DNA of 32,405 nt from an uncultured Ruminococcus sp. GTDB lineage: Bacteria > Bacillota > Clostridia > Oscillospirales > Acutalibacteraceae. A program made the position numbers and the translations under genes. This document shows, piece by piece, positions 12,962 through 27,035 of the stretch; position 1 is the stretch's first letter; every line of letters starts with the position of its first letter. Below the pieces are notes generated by a model. The model was not told the DNA's origin and made no database searches. It saw only the letters and a list, made by a program, of their open reading frames with translations. The stretch covers positions 1 through 32,405 of the forward strand of contig CAJOFK010000016.1 in the NCBI GenBank assembly GCA_905234015.1. Reading direction: 5' to 3'.

Positions 12962-15900
12962 TTAAATTTCTATAACTCCGTCGAATACCTTAGTAGCCTC
13001 ACCGGTCATATATACGGTATCGTCGGTGTAGTTGATTATAAGGTCGCCGCCCTTAAGCTTGACGGTGATATCCTCGCCCTTTTTACAGAAGCCGTTTTCA
13101 CACGCGGCAACCGCAACGGCGCAGGCGCCTGTTCCGCAAGCCCAGGTCTCGCCCGAGCCTCTCTCCCATACTCTCATCTTGATAGTATGGTCATTTAACA
13201 CCTTAACGAACTCGGCGTTGACTCTTTCGGGGAATATCGGGTCGTTCTCGAACTGAGGTCCGATATGCTCAAGGTCGAAGCCGTCAACGTTATCAACAAA
13301 TACAACGCAGTGCGGGTTACCCATAGATACGCAGGTAACGTCGTAGTCCTTACCGCCGATTGTTACGCGCTCGCTTATCATACGGCTCTTTTCGCTCTTA
13401 ACGGGGATATTCTTCGGGTTGAGCTCCGCCTTACCCATATCAACTCTGAGGGTAGTTACCTCGCCGTCCTGAGTAAACGCCTTGAGGTTCTTGATACCGC
13501 TTAAGGTTTCAATTCTCAGCTCGTCGCGCTCGTTTATATCCATCATATTATGGTCGTAGAGGAATTTACCGACGCAGCGGATACCGTTACCGCACATCTT
13601 GCCCTCACTTCCGTCGAGGTTAAACATACGCATTTTAGCGTCAGCTACCTCAGAGGGACATACGAGAATAATTCCGTCGCCGCCGATACCGAAGTGACGG
13701 TCGGAAAGTCTAACCGAAAGCGCCTCGGGGTTGTTGATTTCCTGGTCGAAGGTGCTGCAGTAGATATAGTCGTTGCCGGCACCCTGCATTTTCGTGAATT
13801 TAAGCATCATCTTATCTGAACGCATATTGTTAATATCTACAAGCTCCGTGCTGACCTGAGAATAACGGCTTCTCAGGCAGTCCGCGAGAGCGTTCGCGGT
13901 ATCGAGCGAGGTAAGACAGGGAATATTTCTTTCAACGGTCTTACGTCTGATTTTAACGGAGTCACGGCTCGGAATTCTTCCCTTTGCCGAGGTTGAAATA
14001 ACGTACTGGATTTTTCCGCTTTCAATGAGCGAGATAGTATTGTTATGCTCGCTTTCGTGAATCTTCTTAACTATAGCGGCGTCGATGTTATATGATTTTA
14101 ATACGTCTGCCGTACCCTCGGTAGCGTAGATAGTAAAGCCCATATCGGAATACTTTTTAACGATATCGCCGATTTCAGCCTTATCGGAGTTACGGACGGT
14201 TACGAGTACGCCGCCGCCGTGCTTCATCTTATATCCGGCGCCGATAAGTCCCTTGTAAAGCGCTTCCTCCAAGGTTCCGGCAACGCCTAATACCTCGCCG
14301 GTAGACTTCATCTCGGGACCTAAGTGGTTATCAACGTTTATAAGCTTCTCAAAGCTGAATACGGGAACCTTAACCGCATAGTAAGGCGACTTCTTATAAA
14401 GTCCGGTGCCGTAGCCCATATCCCTGAGCTTTTCGCCGAGCATAGCCTTCGTAGCAAGGTCAACCATAGGAACTCCCGTAACCTTGCTGATATACGGAAT
14501 CGTACGCGATGAACGCGGGTTAACCTCAATAACGTTGAGCTGGCCGTTATATACAATGTACTGAATATTAACGAGTCCCTTTGTCTTTAAGGAAAGCGCG
14601 AGATTTCTCGTAGCCTCGATAATAATATCTACCATATCGTCGGTAACGTTCCACGCCGGATAAACCGCGATAGAGTCGCCGGAATGAACGCCCGAACGCT
14701 CGACGTGCTCCATAATACCGGGTATAAGGATATCCTCACCGTCGCAGATAGCGTCAACCTCAAGCTCGGTACCCATAAGGTACTTGTCGATAAGAATCGG
14801 GTTCTCAATCTCCTGAGCGAGAATAATCGCCATATACTCTCTTACGTCAGCCTCGTTAAAGGCGATAATCATATTCTGACCGCCGAGTACATACGAAGGA
14901 CGAAGCAGTACGGGATAACCGATTTTATCCGCTGCCTCGAGCGCTTCCTCAAGAGTCATTACGGTAACGCCCTTTGCGCGCGCAATATTATGCTTTTCAA
15001 GCAGTTCCTCAAAACGCTCTCTGTCCTCAGCCATATCAATAGCGTCGTAGGAGGTTCCGAGGATATTTACGCCCTGCTTGTCGAGGAACTGAGTGAGCTT
15101 AATCGCTGTCTGACCGCCGAACGCGACAACAACGCCGTAGGGCTTTTCGGTAGCGATAATACCCATAACGTCCTCGTTGGTAAGCGGCTCAAAGTAAAGC
15201 CTGTCGGCTGTATCGAAGTCGGTGGAAACCGTCTCGGGGTTATTGTTTACGATAACAACCTCAAAGCCCGCCTTTTTAAGCGCCCATACGCAGTGAACGG
15301 AGGCGTAGTCGAACTCGATACCCTGACCGATACGGATAGGACCTGAGCCGAATACGATAACAGTCTTTTTATCGCTGTTTCTTTCTTTTATAAACTCCTC
15401 AGCCTCATTCTCCTTATCAAAGGTCGAATAGAAGTAGGGTGTTTCCGCGTTGAACTCCGCCGCGCAGGTATCAACCATTTTATAAACGGGTACGAGCGGA
15501 TTTTCTATAGTCTGATCAGAATACTTCTCGATAGTGCGGTCTAAGAAACCGATTTCCTTAGCTTCTTTATAAAGCTCGTCGGTAAGCGGTTCGCTCTTAA
15601 GCGCCTCGCCTACCTTGATGATATTGATAAGCTTCTCTAAGAACCACTCGTCAATTAAAGTGATTTCGTGGATTTTATCAACTGAGATTCCGCGCTTTAA
15701 CGCCTCGTAAACACAGAACATTCTGAGGTCGTCGCAAACGCTCAGGCGGTCGAGGATTGAAGCGTCGCTCATTTCCTCAAACATCTCGTCGTCAAGGGTA
15801 TCGTGAGAAATTTCGGCTCCGCGGACAGCCTTCATAATAGCCTGCTCAAAGGTCGGAGCGATAGCCATAACCTCGCCGGTCGCCTTCATCTGAGTTCCGA

Positions 15901-17014
15901 GCGAACGCTTGGCGTATACGAATTTATCGAAAGGCCATTTCGGGAGCTTTACTACAACGTAGTCGAGCGCGGGCTCAAAGCAGGCGTAGGTAGAGCCCGT
16001 AACGGCGTTTTTAATCTCGTTTAATGTATAACCGATTGCGATTTTAGCCGCAACCTTTGCGATAGGATAACCCGTAGCCTTTGAAGCAAGCGCGGAAGAG
16101 CGCGAAACTCGGGGGTTAACCTCGATCACGGCATACTCGAAGGTCTCGGGATTTAAGGCGAACTGGCAGTTACAACCGCCCTCAACCTTTAACGCGGAGA
16201 TAATATCAAGCGCCGCGCTGCGGAGCATCTGATACTCCTTATCGGCTAAGGTTACCGCGGGAGCAATAACGATTGAGTCGCCTGTATGAACTCCGACAGG
16301 GTCGAAATTCTCCATTGAGCAGACGGTGATTACGTTGCCTAAGCTGTCGCGCATTACCTCGAACTCGATTTCCTTCCAGCCGGAAATACATTTCTCGATA
16401 AGGCACTGAGTAATCGGAGAAAGCTCAAGTCCGTTTGAGGCGATTTCACGGAGTTCCTCCTCGTTATTAACGATACCGCCGCCGGTACCGCCTAAGGTGA
16501 ACGCGGGACGTACAATTACCGGATAGCCGATTTCGTCGGCAAATGCTACCGCCGCCTCAACGTCGTTTACTACGGTCGAGGGAATAACCGGCTGGTTAAT
16601 CTCGAGCATAGTGTCCTTAAACATCTGCCTGTCCTCGGCCTTATCAATAGTCTCGGGAACGGCTCCTAAAAGCTTTACTCCGTATTTATCCAGGAAGCCT
16701 TCTTTTGCAAGCTGCATTGAGAGCGTGAGTCCCGTCTGACCGCCTAAGGTCGAGAGCAGCGAGTCGGGACGCTCCTTTATAATAATTCTCTTTACAATCT
16801 CTAAGGTAAGCGGTTCGATATAAACCTTATCCGCCATAGCGTTATCGGTCATAATCGTAGCGGGGTTTGAGTTAACGAGAATTACCTCGAGTCCCTCTTC
16901 CTTAAGCGCGCGGCACGCCTGAGTACCGGCGTAGTCAAATTCCGCTGCCTGTCCAATTACAATCGGGCCCGAGCCGATTACCATTACTCTCTTTATATCG
17001 GGTTTTAACGGCAT
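12962..17014 (-). CDS. carB-dapF: Fused carbamoyl-phosphate synthase large subunit (about 1069 aa) and diaminopimelate epimerase (about 281 aa)
   Basis: Single 1350-aa ORF. N-terminal VMVIGSGPIVIGQAAEFDYAGTQACRALKEEG and second half TVIVFGSGPIRIGQGIEFDYASVHCVWAL (CarB) plus an MGS-like domain. From about nt 13807 onward: MLKFTKMQGAGNDYIY, GKMCGNGIRCVGKF and GETWACGTGACAVAVAA (DapF with both catalytic Cys). Confidence 0.95.
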   Translation of the reverse strand: MPLKPDIKRVMVIGSGPIVIGQAAEFDYAGTQACRALKEEGLEVILVNSNPATIMTDNAMADKVYIEPLTLEIVKRIIIKERPDSLLSTLGGQTGLTLSMQLAKEGFLDKYGVKLLGAVPETIDKAEDRQMFKDTMLEINQPVIPSTVVNDVEAAVAFADEIGYPVIVRPAFTLGGTGGGIVNNEEELREIASNGLELSPITQCLIEKCISGWKEIEFEVMRDSLGNVITVCSMENFDPVGVHTGDSIVIAPAVTLADKEYQMLRSAALDIISALKVEGGCNCQFALNPETFEYAVIEVNPRVSRSSALASKATGYPIAKVAAKIAIGYTLNEIKNAVTGSTYACFEPALDYVVVKLPKWPFDKFVYAKRSLGTQMKATGEVMAIAPTFEQAIMKAVRGAEISHDTLDDEMFEEMSDASILDRLSVCDDLRMFCVYEALKRGISVDKIHEITLIDEWFLEKLINIIKVGEALKSEPLTDELYKEAKEIGFLDRTIEKYSDQTIENPLVPVYKMVDTCAAEFNAETPYFYSTFDKENEAEEFIKERNSDKKTVIVFGSGPIRIGQGIEFDYASVHCVWALKKAGFEVVIVNNNPETVSTDFDTADRLYFEPLTNEDVMGIIATEKPYGVVVAFGGQTAIKLTQFLDKQGVNILGTSYDAIDMAEDRERFEELLEKHNIARAKGVTVMTLEEALEAADKIGYPVLLRPSYVLGGQNMIIAFNEADVREYMAIILAQEIENPILIDKYLMGTELEVDAICDGEDILIPGIMEHVERSGVHSGDSIAVYPAWNVTDDMVDIIIEATRNLALSLKTKGLVNIQYIVYNGQLNVIEVNPRSSRTIPYISKVTGVPMVDLATKAMLGEKLRDMGYGTGLYKKSPYYAVKVPVFSFEKLINVDNHLGPEMKSTGEVLGVAGTLEEALYKGLIGAGYKMKHGGGVLVTVRNSDKAEIGDIVKKYSDMGFTIYATEGTADVLKSYNIDAAIVKKIHESEHNNTISLIESGKIQYVISTSAKGRIPSRDSVKIRRKTVERNIPCLTSLDTANALADCLRSRYSQVSTELVDINNMRSDKMMLKFTKMQGAGNDYIYCSTFDQEINNPEALSVRLSDRHFGIGGDGIILVCPSEVADAKMRMFNLDGSEGKMCGNGIRCVGKFLYDHNMMDINERDELRIETLSGIKNLKAFTQDGEVTTLRVDMGKAELNPKNIPVKSEKSRMISERVTIGGKDYDVTCVSMGNPHCVVFVDNVDGFDLEHIGPQFENDPIFPERVNAEFVKVLNDHTIKMRVWERGSGETWACGTGACAVAVAACENGFCKKGEDITVKLKGGDLIINYTDDTVYMTGEATKVFDGVIEI

Positions 17015-18279: not shown

Positions 18280-18846
18280 TCAGTTTTGATATGTCCTTAT
18301 TACCTGTTTAGCTATTTCCAATTTACCGGTACGCATATTCATCGCCTGTTTTTCAATATAGCGGTGAGCCTGCGCCTCAGTCATTGATAAGCATTGAATT
18401 AAAAGCAGCTTTGCACGGTTGATAACCTTTATTTCCTCAAGCTCGTTTTTAAGCTTTTCGGCTTCGTCGTTTCCGGTAATCCTGTTCATATAGCCCATTG
18501 AATATCTTAACAGGTTTTTAAACAGCCTTACCTTAAGCGGTCTGGATACAACCAGCACTCCGCGCTCTGAAACAATATCGAAAACGTCGAGCGTTTTTTC
18601 CTTAGGTACAATCAGCACAACGCACGCATTCGTTTTTTCGGCGCAGAAAACCGAAAGCTCAAGCCCGTTTTCCTCCTTAAGCGGAGCGTTGATTATAATG
18701 AGCCCGAAGTCGTTATCATTCAGCTTGCGCTTAGCGTCGTCTGAGCTGAGCGTACATTGTATCCGTGAAAAGCCCTCATCCTTTAAAAGGGAGGCTACCG
18801 CCTTAATGCCGGTTTCAGTTTTGGAGATAATTAAAGCGTTTTTCAT
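18280..18846 (-). CDS. ANTAR-domain RNA-binding response-regulator-like protein
   Basis: Receiver-like N-terminus and C-terminal ANTAR pattern LEEIKVINRAKLLLIQCLSMTEAQAHRYIEKQAMNMRTGKLEIAKQVI. Start is ATG 18846, or GTG 18855. Confidence 0.88.
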   Translation of the reverse strand: MKNALIISKTETGIKAVASLLKDEGFSRIQCTLSSDDAKRKLNDNDFGLIIINAPLKEENGLELSVFCAEKTNACVVLIVPKEKTLDVFDIVSERGVLVVSRPLKVRLFKNLLRYSMGYMNRITGNDEAEKLKNELEEIKVINRAKLLLIQCLSMTEAQAHRYIEKQAMNMRTGKLEIAKQVIRTYQN

Positions 18847-18919
18847 AAACCTCACCGTCGTATTATTCCATCGTATTATTGTAATCTATTTCGGCTTAAA
18901 ATTTATTGCATATTAGAAT

Positions 18920-22493: not shown

Positions 22494-24698
22494 TTATATA
22501 GCCTTACCATTCACATACAGCTTATAACCGTTGAGGTCGATATTGCTGTTTGTTTTATCGGCGTTATCAAGAGAGGTAACGTAGGTATCGCCGGTTAAGG
22601 TGATTTTTGAGCTTTTATCGAGCTTAAGCGTAACGCTCTTTGCGGTTTTATCACCGTTAATCGTACCCTTATAGGTTGATTTAGTGAGGTTAATCGTAAC
22701 GGTTGAGATACTGTCCGCTTTAATATCGCCCGAAAGCTTCTGGTTCTCGGCGTTTAAAGTAACGTTGCCGCCGTTTGAGCCCGAGTTGCCCCATTCGCTC
22801 GTACCTTCGGCATTGATAAGAACTCCGCTGCCGAAATTGAGCGTAGTGTTTTTCAGGTTGATTTCCGCGTCGGTGTTCGTTACGAAGAACATCGGGGCGG
22901 TTTTATAATAGCTTGAGCTCTTTTTTATCGAAAGCGTTGAGTTTTCGGAAGTAAAAGTGCCTTTGCCCTCGCCTGCGTCGCCTGACATACTCTGATAAAT
23001 CATAACGCCTGCGTTATCGACGTTGTTGCGGTTGCCCGCACCGCTCGCCGTTAAGGTCGAGTTCTTTACCGTCGCGGAGTTTTTACCCTCAACAACCGTA
23101 ATCTGGGAGCCGTTGGCGGTACCCTTAGTATTGGTTACGGAGATATCGCCTGTCGAGTAGATTACCGGAGAACCGGCGCCGTTTGTAGTAAGGTCGGAGT
23201 TTTTAACCTTGACGGTACCCTCGCCGCGGTCAGTAGCGAGCGCCGCGCAGGATCCGCCCTTAGTATTAACGGTCACGTTATCGGCTTCAATATATCCGCC
23301 GTAGGTAGCGTCGAGTCCTCTCGCGGAGCTCTCGCCTGTCGTTGTGATTTTCGTATTGCTTACATATACTTTAGAGTTTTCGCCTGTTGAAAACACGGCG
23401 TTGCTGCCCTTAGCCGAGGTTTTAATCTCGGTGTTTTTTATTGTTGCGGTTGAGTTTTCTTTTACGAGCACACCCGCGTTCACTCCGTAAAATTCAGAGT
23501 TCTCGGTATTTGTGCTGTCGCCGGACTTCGTAATTTCAGCATCCTTTATCTCAGCGTTTCCGCCGTTTTCAACAAGTACCGCGCTGACGTCGCTGTCGGA
23601 GGAGCTGTAGCTCTCGGTAAGTGTTTTATTATCGGTTACGGTAGTTTTTCCTGACGCCGAAACGTTTGACGCTGAGGTTTTATCGGTTCCGTTCTGCTGA
23701 AAGGAATTGTTCTGCTGAGAGTTTCCGGGAAGCTGCATCTGCTGATGAGCCGAAGCCGCGCCCGAGGTTACGAGCTCGCAAACGGCTATCTGAGCTCCGG
23801 CAAGAGCCGCGCCGATAATTGCGGTGCACAGTATGAATATCAGAATTCTTTTAGCGCCTCTGAGCGACTCTCTGAATCCGCGCTTGTTAAAACCGGAGAG
23901 GATAAGATACATCACGAGCGCCGCGATAATAAGAGAATCCGCCGTCAACGCCGAATACTTTACAACCGTCATAAACGAGCCGCCCCTATGGTCAAAGCCG
24001 TCCTGCATAAATCCGCCGAATTGGTTGTTGTCGTTTTGGTTCTGACCGTTATCGGGAACGAAGCCGCCTGAATTATTATTTGAGTTGCTGTCGTTTGAGC
24101 TGTTGTTATCTGAATTTCCGCTGCCGGAACTGTTATTATCGGAGTTTGAGTCATTTGAATTTCCGTTAAAGCCTCGTCCGGGGAAGCTGTCGCCGTTGTT
24201 GTTTCCGTTATTATTATCCGGTACGAAGGCTGTTTGGTCGGAATTATCGCCGGAGGAGTTATCGCTCTGAGAGCTTCCGTTCATCTGCGGCGGCTGACCC
24301 GGCATACCGTTATCGGAGTTTTCGTTCTGAGAATCGCTGTCCTGAGAGTTATTACCGCTTTGACCGTCCGGCATCTGCGGCGGCTGACCGTTCTGATTAT
24401 CGGAATTGCCGTTCATCTGCGGCGGCTGACCCGGCATACCGTTATCGGAGCCGCTGTTCTGAGAATTACCGCTCTGAGAGTTATTATCCGAACTTCCGGA
24501 GTTGTTATCCGGGTTCTGCGAGCTGCTGCCGCCTTGCATATCGGGCGGCTGCTGCATACTGCCCTGACTGCTGCTCAGTTGAGGAGGGGCGCCCGATTTA
24601 CTGTCTCCGATGAAATTCATCGTGAGCACTGATACTCCGGCGAAAACCACCACCATTCCTATCATTACTGTATTTTTAACCTTGCGTGTAATTTTCAC
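22494..24698 (-). CDS. Membrane-anchored surface protein: Asn/Ser/Gln/Pro low-complexity region, two central TM segments, C-terminal beta-helix-like repeats
   Basis: N-terminal TM VMIGMVVVFAGVSVLTMNFI; low-complexity NSGSDNGMPGQPPQMNG…; TMs SLIIAALVMYLILSGF and ILIFILCTAIIGAALAGA; C-terminal repeats such as NAEIKDAEIT, TATIKNTEIKT, SKVYVSNTKITT. Confidence 0.7.
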   Translation of the reverse strand: MKITRKVKNTVMIGMVVVFAGVSVLTMNFIGDSKSGAPPQLSSSQGSMQQPPDMQGGSSSQNPDNNSGSSDNNSQSGNSQNSGSDNGMPGQPPQMNGNSDNQNGQPPQMPDGQSGNNSQDSDSQNENSDNGMPGQPPQMNGSSQSDNSSGDNSDQTAFVPDNNNGNNNGDSFPGRGFNGNSNDSNSDNNSSGSGNSDNNSSNDSNSNNNSGGFVPDNGQNQNDNNQFGGFMQDGFDHRGGSFMTVVKYSALTADSLIIAALVMYLILSGFNKRGFRESLRGAKRILIFILCTAIIGAALAGAQIAVCELVTSGAASAHQQMQLPGNSQQNNSFQQNGTDKTSASNVSASGKTTVTDNKTLTESYSSSDSDVSAVLVENGGNAEIKDAEITKSGDSTNTENSEFYGVNAGVLVKENSTATIKNTEIKTSAKGSNAVFSTGENSKVYVSNTKITTTGESSARGLDATYGGYIEADNVTVNTKGGSCAALATDRGEGTVKVKNSDLTTNGAGSPVIYSTGDISVTNTKGTANGSQITVVEGKNSATVKNSTLTASGAGNRNNVDNAGVMIYQSMSGDAGEGKGTFTSENSTLSIKKSSSYYKTAPMFFVTNTDAEINLKNTTLNFGSGVLINAEGTSEWGNSGSNGGNVTLNAENQKLSGDIKADSISTVTINLTKSTYKGTINGDKTAKSVTLKLDKSSKITLTGDTYVTSLDNADKTNSNIDLNGYKLYVNGKAI
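24277..24450 (-). repeat. 42-bp exact direct repeat in the low-complexity coding region (24277-24318 and 24409-24450)
   Basis: ccgttcatctgcggcggctgacccggcataccgttatcggag occurs twice, 132 bp apart; a partial third copy starts near 24367. Confidence 0.9.
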
Positions 24699-24837
24699 TT
24701 AAATCATCTCCTTTTTGATTTTGTACCCCTATAATAAACCCTGATTATAAAAACGGCGTGACTTAAATTTGAATTATTATTGAATTATTGTGAATTATTT
24801 TTTCACATTTATTTTCTTATTTTAATATAATGAAGTA

Positions 24838-24866
24838 TTGACAATTTTTATAATCCGTTATATACT
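24838..24866 (+). promoter_or_regulatory. Putative glnA promoter (TTGACA-N17-TATACT)
   Basis: -35 at 24838-24843 and -10 at 24861-24866, 17-bp spacer. Confidence 0.7.
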
Positions 24867-24878
24867 TGCAGTTGATGA

Positions 24879-24926
24879 CGCAGCAACGGCGCTGTGAGCT
24901 ATTGCTCACGGCGCTATTTTGTTTTT
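24879..24926 (+). promoter_or_regulatory. glnA leader attenuator: intrinsic terminator with overlapping ANTAR-like hairpin
   Basis: Terminator GGCGCTGTGAGC-TATT-GCTCACGGCGCT (24888-24915) plus ATTTTGTTTTT. Alternative hairpin CGCAGC-AACGGC-GCTGTG (24879-24896) shares bases with its 5' arm. Confidence 0.65.
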
Positions 24927-24941
24927 AAAGGAGAATGGATA

Positions 24942-27035
24942 ATGGTTAATGTTCCCGAATTATTCGGAAGTAATGTATTCAACGATGACGTAATGAGAGA
25001 TAAACTCCCTAAGCCCATCTATAAAGCTCTCAAGAAAACTATTCAGGACGGCGCAACGCTTGACGACAGCGTAGCAAACGCCGTAGCCCACGCTATGAAG
25101 GAATGGGCAATTGAAAAAGGCTGTACTCATTACACTCACTGGTTCCAGCCGCTCACCGGAGTTACCGCGGAAAAGCACGACAGCTTTATCACACCCGACG
25201 GCGACGGCAGAGTTATTATGACATTCTCGGGTAAAGAGCTTATCAAGGGCGAACCCGACGCGTCCTCATTCCCCTCAGGCGGTATCCGCGCAACATTTGA
25301 AGCGAGAGGCTACACCGCGTGGGACCCCACCTCCCCTGCTTTTGCAAAGGACGGAACGCTTTATATTCCGACGGCGTTCTGCTCATATACGGGAGAGGTT
25401 CTCGATAAAAAAACACCGCTTCTCCGTTCGATGGAAAAGCTCTCAAAGGAAGCCGTCCGCATACTTAATATTCTCGGAAAGCCCGAGGTTAACCACGTTG
25501 TTACAACCGTAGGTCCCGAGCAGGAATACTTCCTTATTGATAAAGATATGTATAACGCGCGCCCCGACCTTATCTTCACGGGACGTACACTCTTCGGAGC
25601 AAAGGCTCCCAAGGGTCAGGAGCTCGACGACCACTACTTCGGCTCGATTAAAACAAGAATCGGCGAGTTTATGGCGGAGCTCGACCGCGAGCTCTGGTCC
25701 TACGGCATTTACGCTAAAACCGAGCACAACGAGGTTGCGCCCTCACAGCACGAGGTTGCGCCGATTTTCACCACCGCCAACGTAGCTGTTGATAACAACG
25801 AGCTGCTTATGGAGATTCTTAAAAAGACAGCCGAGAAATTCGACCTCGTATGTCTCCTGCACGAAAAGCCCTTCGCGGGCGTTAACGGCTCGGGCAAGCA
25901 CAACAACTGGTCGCTCTTTACCAACACCGGCGAAAACCTCTTAAAGCCCGGCAAGAACCCCTCGGAGAACGTTCAGTTCTTAATCTTCCTCGCGGCTATC
26001 GTAAAGGCGGTCGACGATTATCAGGACTTACTCAGAATTTCCGTAGCTTCCGCAGGCAACGACCACCGTCTCGGCGCTAACGAGGCTCCGCCCGCAATCT
26101 TATCGGTATTCCTCGGCGACGATTTAGGCGCGGTAGTTGACTCAATCGAAATCGGCGAGGAGCACGAGAGCGAAGGCAAAAAGAGCATGGACCTCGGCGT
26201 TGAGGTTCTTCCCACAGTCCGCAAGGACACAACCGACCGCAACCGTACCTCTCCGTTCGCGTTTACCGGAAACCGCTTTGAGTTCAGAATGTTAGGCTCA
26301 GCCGCCAACATCGCCAGCGCGAATATCATTCTCAACACAGCCGTAGCCGAGGAGCTCAGGGAATTTGCCGACAGGCTCGAATCCGTAAAGGATGTTAAGT
26401 CGGCGGCTAAAAGACTCGTTGTAAGAACCTTTAAAAAGCATGACCGCATTATCTTCAACGGCGACAACTACTCCGAGGAGTGGGTTGAGGAAGCCGAAAG
26501 ACGCGGACTTTATAACTTAAAGAGCGTTCCCGACGCGGTAAGACATTATCTCGACGAAAAGAACATCAAGCTCTTTGCCGAAAACGGCGTACTTACCGAG
26601 CAGGAGCTCAACGCGCGCTACGAGGTTGAGCTTGAGAATTACGCGAAGCTAATCAACATCGAGGCGCTCACAATGCTCGATATGGCTAAAAAGGACATTA
26701 TCCCCGCCGTAACCGAGTACGTTAAGAGCTTAACCGATACGGCGCTCGCAAAGCAGGCGCTTTCACCCGATATTCCGACAAGCCTTGAGCGCGATCTTAT
26801 TATCGACTTAAGCCAGAAGCTCGTATGCTTCTCAAATAAGGTTAAGGATTTAGAGAACGACCTCATCAACGCAGGCGAGCACGCCGACGATATGCAGGAA
26901 TACGCGGATTATTACTGCCGCACCGTATTCGCGGATATGCAGGCGCTGAGGGCAATCGGCGACGATATGGAAACCGAAACCTCGTCCGAGTATTGGCCTT
27001 ATCCCTCATACGGCGAAATGCTTTTCGGAGTTTAA
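24942..27035 (+). CDS. glnA: Glutamine synthetase type III
   Basis: [63 protein letters not shown]. Start 24942 after AAAGGAG. Confidence 0.96.

Follow-up and report, generated by a model that had tools for sequence, protein, structure and literature searches.

Does a single ANTAR-type hexaloop, placed at the very start of an mRNA, suffice for control by antitermination? The question is raised by the leader of glnN in a 32,405-nt stretch of DNA from an uncultured Ruminococcus sp. (the window, which here always means the whole stretch analysed). In the studied systems two hairpins are required. EutV needs both in vivo, with P1 as the necessary recruitment hairpin for antitermination (PMC8934654), and NasR also needs both (PMC7496416). 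The EutV structure paper (NAR, 2022) narrowed the minimal ANTAR site to one hexaloop and requested bioinformatic evidence of single sites, which its authors expected only where transcription imposes no time pressure (PMC8934654). It was the only paper on single-hexaloop ANTAR sites found by our literature search, which covered sources outside subscription journals. ANTAR control of nitrogen genes, glutamine synthetase included, is already known (PMC3369931, PMC3369936), and according to a review (PMC6316151, on Stutz 2007), NitR of Clostridium saccharobutylicum is reported to respond to nitrogen limitation by inducing GS/GOGAT genes through antitermination. What is new here is the RNA with its single hexaloop. 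We consider it about 80% probable that the glnN leader is a transcription attenuator controlled by the genome's ANTAR protein through a single hexaloop right at the 5' end of the mRNA.

Direct reading places the promoter, the hexaloop hairpin and the terminator (Table 1) exactly where an earlier sequence-only reading had put them. That reading called the region a glnA leader; the leader stands, but the gene encodes a type III synthetase (Pfam GSIII_N, E 1.7e-81; Gln-synt_C-ter; Gln-synt_C) and is glnN, not classical glnA. Its proposal of an ANTAR-type hexaloop that competes with the terminator is supported. Positions 24888-24896 are common to the hexaloop hairpin and the 5' arm of the terminator, which makes the two hairpins mutually exclusive. 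Computed fold energies are -7.6 kcal/mol for the hexaloop hairpin and -23 kcal/mol for the terminator, and the leader folds better than its shuffles (z = -3.7). A consensus scan of 400 nt of the glnN region found one terminator-like site, the one described, with 0.2 expected. Scanning the window with Rfam 15 models to E 1 gave no match at gathering score (best weak match E 0.36). In the window's genome the exact motif precedes both glnN copies; the third exact match is no such leader. The window's gdhA does not carry such a leader.

Table 1. Features of the glnN leader and of the ANTAR gene in the window (positions count from the first letter of the window).
Feature	Position	Strand	Basis or remark
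Sigma-A type promoter of glnN, TTGACA-N17-TATACT	24838-24866	+	11/12 consensus
-35 box, TTGACA	24838-24843	+	direct sequence reading
-10 box, TATACT	24861-24866	+	direct sequence reading; 17-nt spacer
Predicted transcription start region of glnN	24871-24875	+	5-9 nt 3' of TATACT
Candidate single hexaloop antiterminator hairpin, CGCAGC-AACGGC-GCTGTG	24879-24896	+	sequence, conservation, fold
Hexaloop hairpin, 5' arm CGCAGC	24879-24884	+	
Hexaloop AACGGC	24885-24890	+	A1 = 24885, G4 = 24888
Hexaloop hairpin, 3' arm GCTGTG	24891-24896	+	
Intrinsic terminator, 12-bp hairpin (24888-24915) plus ATTTTGTTTTT	24888-24926	+	fold, covariation, scan
Terminator 5' arm, GGCGCTGTGAGC	24888-24899	+	followed by loop TATT
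Terminator 3' arm, GCTCACGGCGCT	24904-24915	+	
T-tract, ATTTTGTTTTT	24916-24926	+	
RBS of glnN, AAAGGAG	24927-24933	+	sequence; ATG at 24942
glnN, type III glutamine synthetase, 697 aa, proposed regulated gene	24942-27035	+	Pfam
ANTAR protein with degenerate receiver, proposed trans-acting antiterminator	18280-18855	-	PF03861; likely start 18846

Folding of the growing transcript predicts a cotranscriptional switch: transcripts of 24-38 nt hold the hexaloop hairpin, and from about 42 nt onwards the terminator replaces it. In the default state, this 12-bp terminator would fold once it emerges and RNA polymerase would halt ahead of the RBS. At low nitrogen, the ANTAR protein would bind the hexaloop, the first structure to fold, through A1, G4 and the C:G closing pair; the bound hairpin would occupy the terminator's 5' arm and polymerase would read into glnN. 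One hexaloop might suffice if the ANTAR protein is a constitutive or partner-controlled dimer with a pseudo-receiver as in AmiR, and/or if polymerase is still promoter-proximal and slow.

The sequence-only reading had named conservation in relatives as a check, and the hairpins pass it strongly. Our genus sample comprises 150 genomes, 146 of them with a type III synthetase. The element is present in 64 of the glnN leaders read, with A1, A2, G4 and the C:G closing pair invariant; the invariance of A1 and G4, here and in the alignments below, is partly fixed by the motif search itself. The loops are AAAGGC (25 leaders), AAGGGC (16), AACGGC (11), AATGGC (7), AAGGGT (3), AACGGT (1) and AAGGAC (1), all of which fit AANGRY. 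Among other Clostridia, the loop-plus-stem motif occurs in 45 of 80 glnN leaders, against 0.26 in shuffles.

The position of the element is as constant as its loop. In 63 of the 64 genus leaders, the promoter has a 17-nt spacer and stands directly 5' of the element, the conserved AGC lies 9-16 nt from the end of the -10 box and the stem starts 7-14 nt (median 12) 3' of it; in the window the distance to the 6-bp hairpin is 12 nt. Transcription usually starts about 6-8 nt 3' of the -10 box, so the hairpin should begin at about +1 to +8. The transcript would thus begin with the hairpin, and no P1 fits.

For the missing P1, the sequence-only reading had offered two explanations, a single-hairpin variant or a start further upstream. 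The second would make this a classical dual-hexaloop ANTAR attenuator with a P1 hexaloop ahead of the described hairpin, and the window has candidates for both parts: a second promoter-like site, TTCACA-18-TATAAT, at 24802-24831, and an A1/G4 hexaloop, ttaatatAATGAAgtattga, that can be drawn at 24829. The ttaatatAATGAAgtattga hairpin, however, consists almost only of A/T, has no C:G closing pair, overlaps both the upstream -10 box and the glnN -35 box, and is without counterpart in relatives, where upstream A1/G4 hexaloops were seen in 2 of 64 genus leaders versus 4.4 in shuffles. Since the near promoter is also kept with its exact spacing in all but one leader, an upstream start with a P1 is very unlikely, and the evidence favours the single-hairpin explanation. 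The element shares the A1/G4 hexaloop, the C:G closure, the terminator overlap and the occurrence in genomes that encode an ANTAR protein with the dual-hexaloop motif (Ramesh 2012), but each element has one hexaloop where that motif has two in a row, P1 and P2, with a constrained linker; it is therefore a variant apart from the motif and not a member of it.

A hairpin at the very 5' end could also act mainly against mRNA decay or in tuning translation, the second hairpin being a weak terminator, which in the window lies 12 nt from the RBS. A protective stem would have no need of an invariant A1, A2 and G4, of mutual exclusion with a terminator or of a T-tract, and the RBS of relatives often lies another 30-60 nt downstream. 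We regard this explanation as highly unlikely.

Covariation bears on both hairpins of the proposed attenuator. We used an alignment of 45 genus leaders (alignment A1) and one of more distant Clostridia elements (alignment A2). In the genus alignment, 95% of terminator cells are paired, both-sided changes occur at 6 of the 12 pairs, and they amount to 58 cells versus 14.6 in shuffles. The loop-closing pair is C:G in 45/45 leaders, and the antiterminator stem CAGC/GCTG is nearly invariant, so covariation of that stem is uninformative within the genus. In the distant alignment, the same stem is 86% paired, with 41 both-sided changes, versus 20.9 in shuffles. Its covariation score is 0.58 versus 0.30, and no slid register scores above 0.21. 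Members of this alignment were picked by the loop and its flanking C/G, nearly all 14-23 nt from a -10-like box, and not by stem length, apart from four members added from a stem-rule list. Stem variants elsewhere in Clostridia include AAAGGC-AAAGGC-GTCTTT, GAAGC-AATGGC-GCTTC and CGAC-AAAGGC-GTCG.

The near-palindrome ACAGC-N6-GCTGT sits at the start site just 3' of the promoter, a usual position for a DNA operator, and could in principle be read as one for a repressor or an activator. Yet a G-U at one stem position in 18 of 33 distant elements breaks a DNA palindrome and not an RNA stem, the six bases between the arms are conserved as read on a single strand (AANGRY), and the overlap with the covarying terminator is kept. 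A DNA operator is extremely improbable; stem covariation across Clostridia with many G·U pairs indicates that the hexaloop element acts as RNA.

The candidate regulator is encoded on the minus strand, 6.0 kb from the leader, in agreement with the earlier claim of an ANTAR gene at that distance. Its ANTAR domain (PF03861) scores 54.3 bits (E 1.2e-14; curated cut-off 27.3) and is the only one in the window's genome. Residues K149, E160 and M172, with which EutV contacts the hexaloop, have their counterparts in K146, E157 and M169, invariant in 78/78 relatives, and contact Y164 is replaced by an invariant H161; AmiR also has His there. The receiver is degenerate: Response_reg scores 25.3 bits, under the 30.2 cut-off, and the protein lacks the phosphoacceptor Asp and the acidic pair of phosphorylated receivers. 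The Asp is Asn in 75/78 relatives and the acidic pair is Ser-X in most. Its sequence suggests a protein that binds RNA and is not controlled by phosphorylation; its input would come from a partner protein.

Element and ANTAR genes occur together in three samples, with p values that overstate certainty because genomes and not independent events are counted. Genus elements were called with an RNA model (R1) and ANTAR genes by the ANTAR domain. The 150 genus genomes divide into 82 with both, 27 with ANTAR only, 8 with the element only and 33 with neither (p 9e-10); absences of either are uncertain because most genomes are MAGs. Restricting the sample to the 81 genomes that are at least 90% complete gives 51, 17, 0 and 13, respectively, and 40 genomes of other Clostridia give 22, 7, 0 and 11 (p 1.4e-5). 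At class level, we searched 291 genomes with a stem-free promoter and loop pattern. It matched in 72, and a reversed control pattern had only a handful of matches. Here 61 genomes have both, 84 ANTAR only, 11 the element only and 135 neither (p 2.5e-12), with the element undercounted, as the pattern's spacing limit misses even the window's own element.

The link also holds at the level of loci and protein families. Of 80 glnN loci, 31 have an ANTAR gene no further than 8 kb away; 30 of these have the element and the remaining one a near variant with the loop AAAGGA. The ANTARs of element-bearing genus genomes fall in one clade with the window's ANTAR (support 100/100), and most of those sampled from element-free genus genomes fall in another group. 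Two genomes (G010, G088) have ANTARs that group with distant element carriers, and they hold a divergent form of the element. In the genus, glnN leaders of no-ANTAR genomes such as G015 and G033 lack the hexaloop. Where an ANTAR gene is present and R1 does not match, the five glnN leaders read (G023, G035, G050, G082, G102) also have no hexaloop. Weak R1 matches in G120, G135 and G140 proved to be convergent or promoterless terminators and not leaders, and class-level matches with the loop AATGAT and a 1-2 bp stem were judged chance.

Co-occurrence could still be incidental to nitrogen physiology, with the terminator answering to another antitermination signal such as a different RNA-binding protein, leader translation or polymerase speed. 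ANTAR dependence of glnN readthrough is an inference, and about five of the 11 class-level pattern genomes without an ANTAR match (G228, G232, G437, G471, G476) have elements that look real; these may reflect an assembly gap or another binder. Against such a signal, A1 and G4 of the loop, together with the C:G closing pair, are what published work names as ANTAR determinants, ANTAR genes adjoin glnN in many genomes in addition to co-occurring strongly with the element, and the glnN leader has no space for a leader peptide. We therefore think a non-ANTAR signal very improbable. The real-looking promoter-hexaloop elements in no-ANTAR genomes stand, for example, ahead of amtB.

The proposed attenuator is not confined to glnN. 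Reading translations to name genes outside the window, we found the promoter-hexaloop-terminator unit ahead of amtB (G008, G054) and glmS (G117), ahead of asnA, amtB, glnN and glnA in class-level loci, and ahead of gltB in G010. The glmS leader (L304, G117:C28) is a 5'-terminal hexaloop attenuator of the proposed type, before a glutamine amidotransferase of cell-wall synthesis. A nitrogen supercluster (L300, G010:C75:15500-33500) has hexaloop motifs ahead of purC (two), glnN, gdhA and gltB; it comprises purC, asnB, amtB with a PII-like C-terminus, glnN, gdhA, a split glutamate synthase, type I glnA and an ANTAR gene. In some glnN leaders (L099, L105, L114, L115, L119, L122), two single-hexaloop units follow one another about 70-175 nt apart, and each unit has a hairpin of its own. 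In another locus (L307, G232:C65), about 136 nt separate a hexaloop element, whose stem has 7 bp, from a downstream ORF; the start of that ORF, by eye only, resembles a GatD-like glutamine amidotransferase.

Taken further, the leaders probably represent a distinct class widespread in Clostridia, in which an mRNA-leading single hexaloop serves as both recruitment and antiterminator hairpin, P1 is not generally required, and one pseudo-receiver ANTAR coordinates a regulon of glnN, glnA, amtB, asnA, gltB, gdhA and glmS by attenuation alone. Single-hexaloop sites would then be part of real attenuators and conserved across dozens of genera, and such leaders offer natural RNAs on which the role of P1 can be tested directly. 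They suggest a route of nitrogen-assimilation control in many gut and soil Clostridia. For organisms in which little is known about nitrogen control, they also provide a clear regulon and a candidate regulator.

Comparison with known systems shows which parts are shared. The closest likeness in RNA is to the eut leaders bound by EutV of Enterococcus faecalis (PMC3369931, PMC8934654), which have the A1/G4 hexaloop and a hairpin over the terminator's 5' arm; the window loop matches the eut 13-mer AGCAANGRRGCUY except at loop position 6, C for R (PMC3369931), and the ANTAR protein keeps the three contact residues given above. EutV differs in its two consecutive hairpins with an obligatory P1, whereas here there is one hairpin and no P1, and in its activation by phosphorylation of Asp54, where the present protein has Asn. 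The SELEX consensus for NasR on the Klebsiella oxytoca nasF leader likewise combines a C:G closing pair with an A1/G4 hexaloop, but NasR requires the two-hairpin motif and has a NIT sensor domain in place of the receiver (PMC7496416). NitR is comparable in protein role, as an ANTAR-family inducer of GS/GOGAT genes according to the review (PMC6316151). AmiR of Pseudomonas aeruginosa, also an ANTAR protein, has a pseudo-receiver that does not undergo phosphorylation (PMC3369936, PMC8934654), but it controls amidase through AmiC, and its leader is described with P1 and P2.

Some further features of the window were noted. On the minus strand (18855-11593), carA, carB-dapF and an LL-diaminopimelate-aminotransferase-like gene directly follow the ANTAR gene; all of them possibly share one transcript, which would tie the nitrogen regulator to glutamine-using genes. 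A 734-aa Asn/Gly/Ser-rich, secreted-looking repeat protein is encoded between gapA and glnN (22494-24698, minus). The carB-dapF gene (12962-17014, minus) fuses CarB, the carbamoyl-phosphate synthase large subunit, in-frame to DapF, diaminopimelate epimerase, in 1350 aa. This fusion is intact in 8 other sampled genus genomes and in 5 genomes of other families in the order, with open frames of about 1325-1430 aa; other genomes have separate genes.
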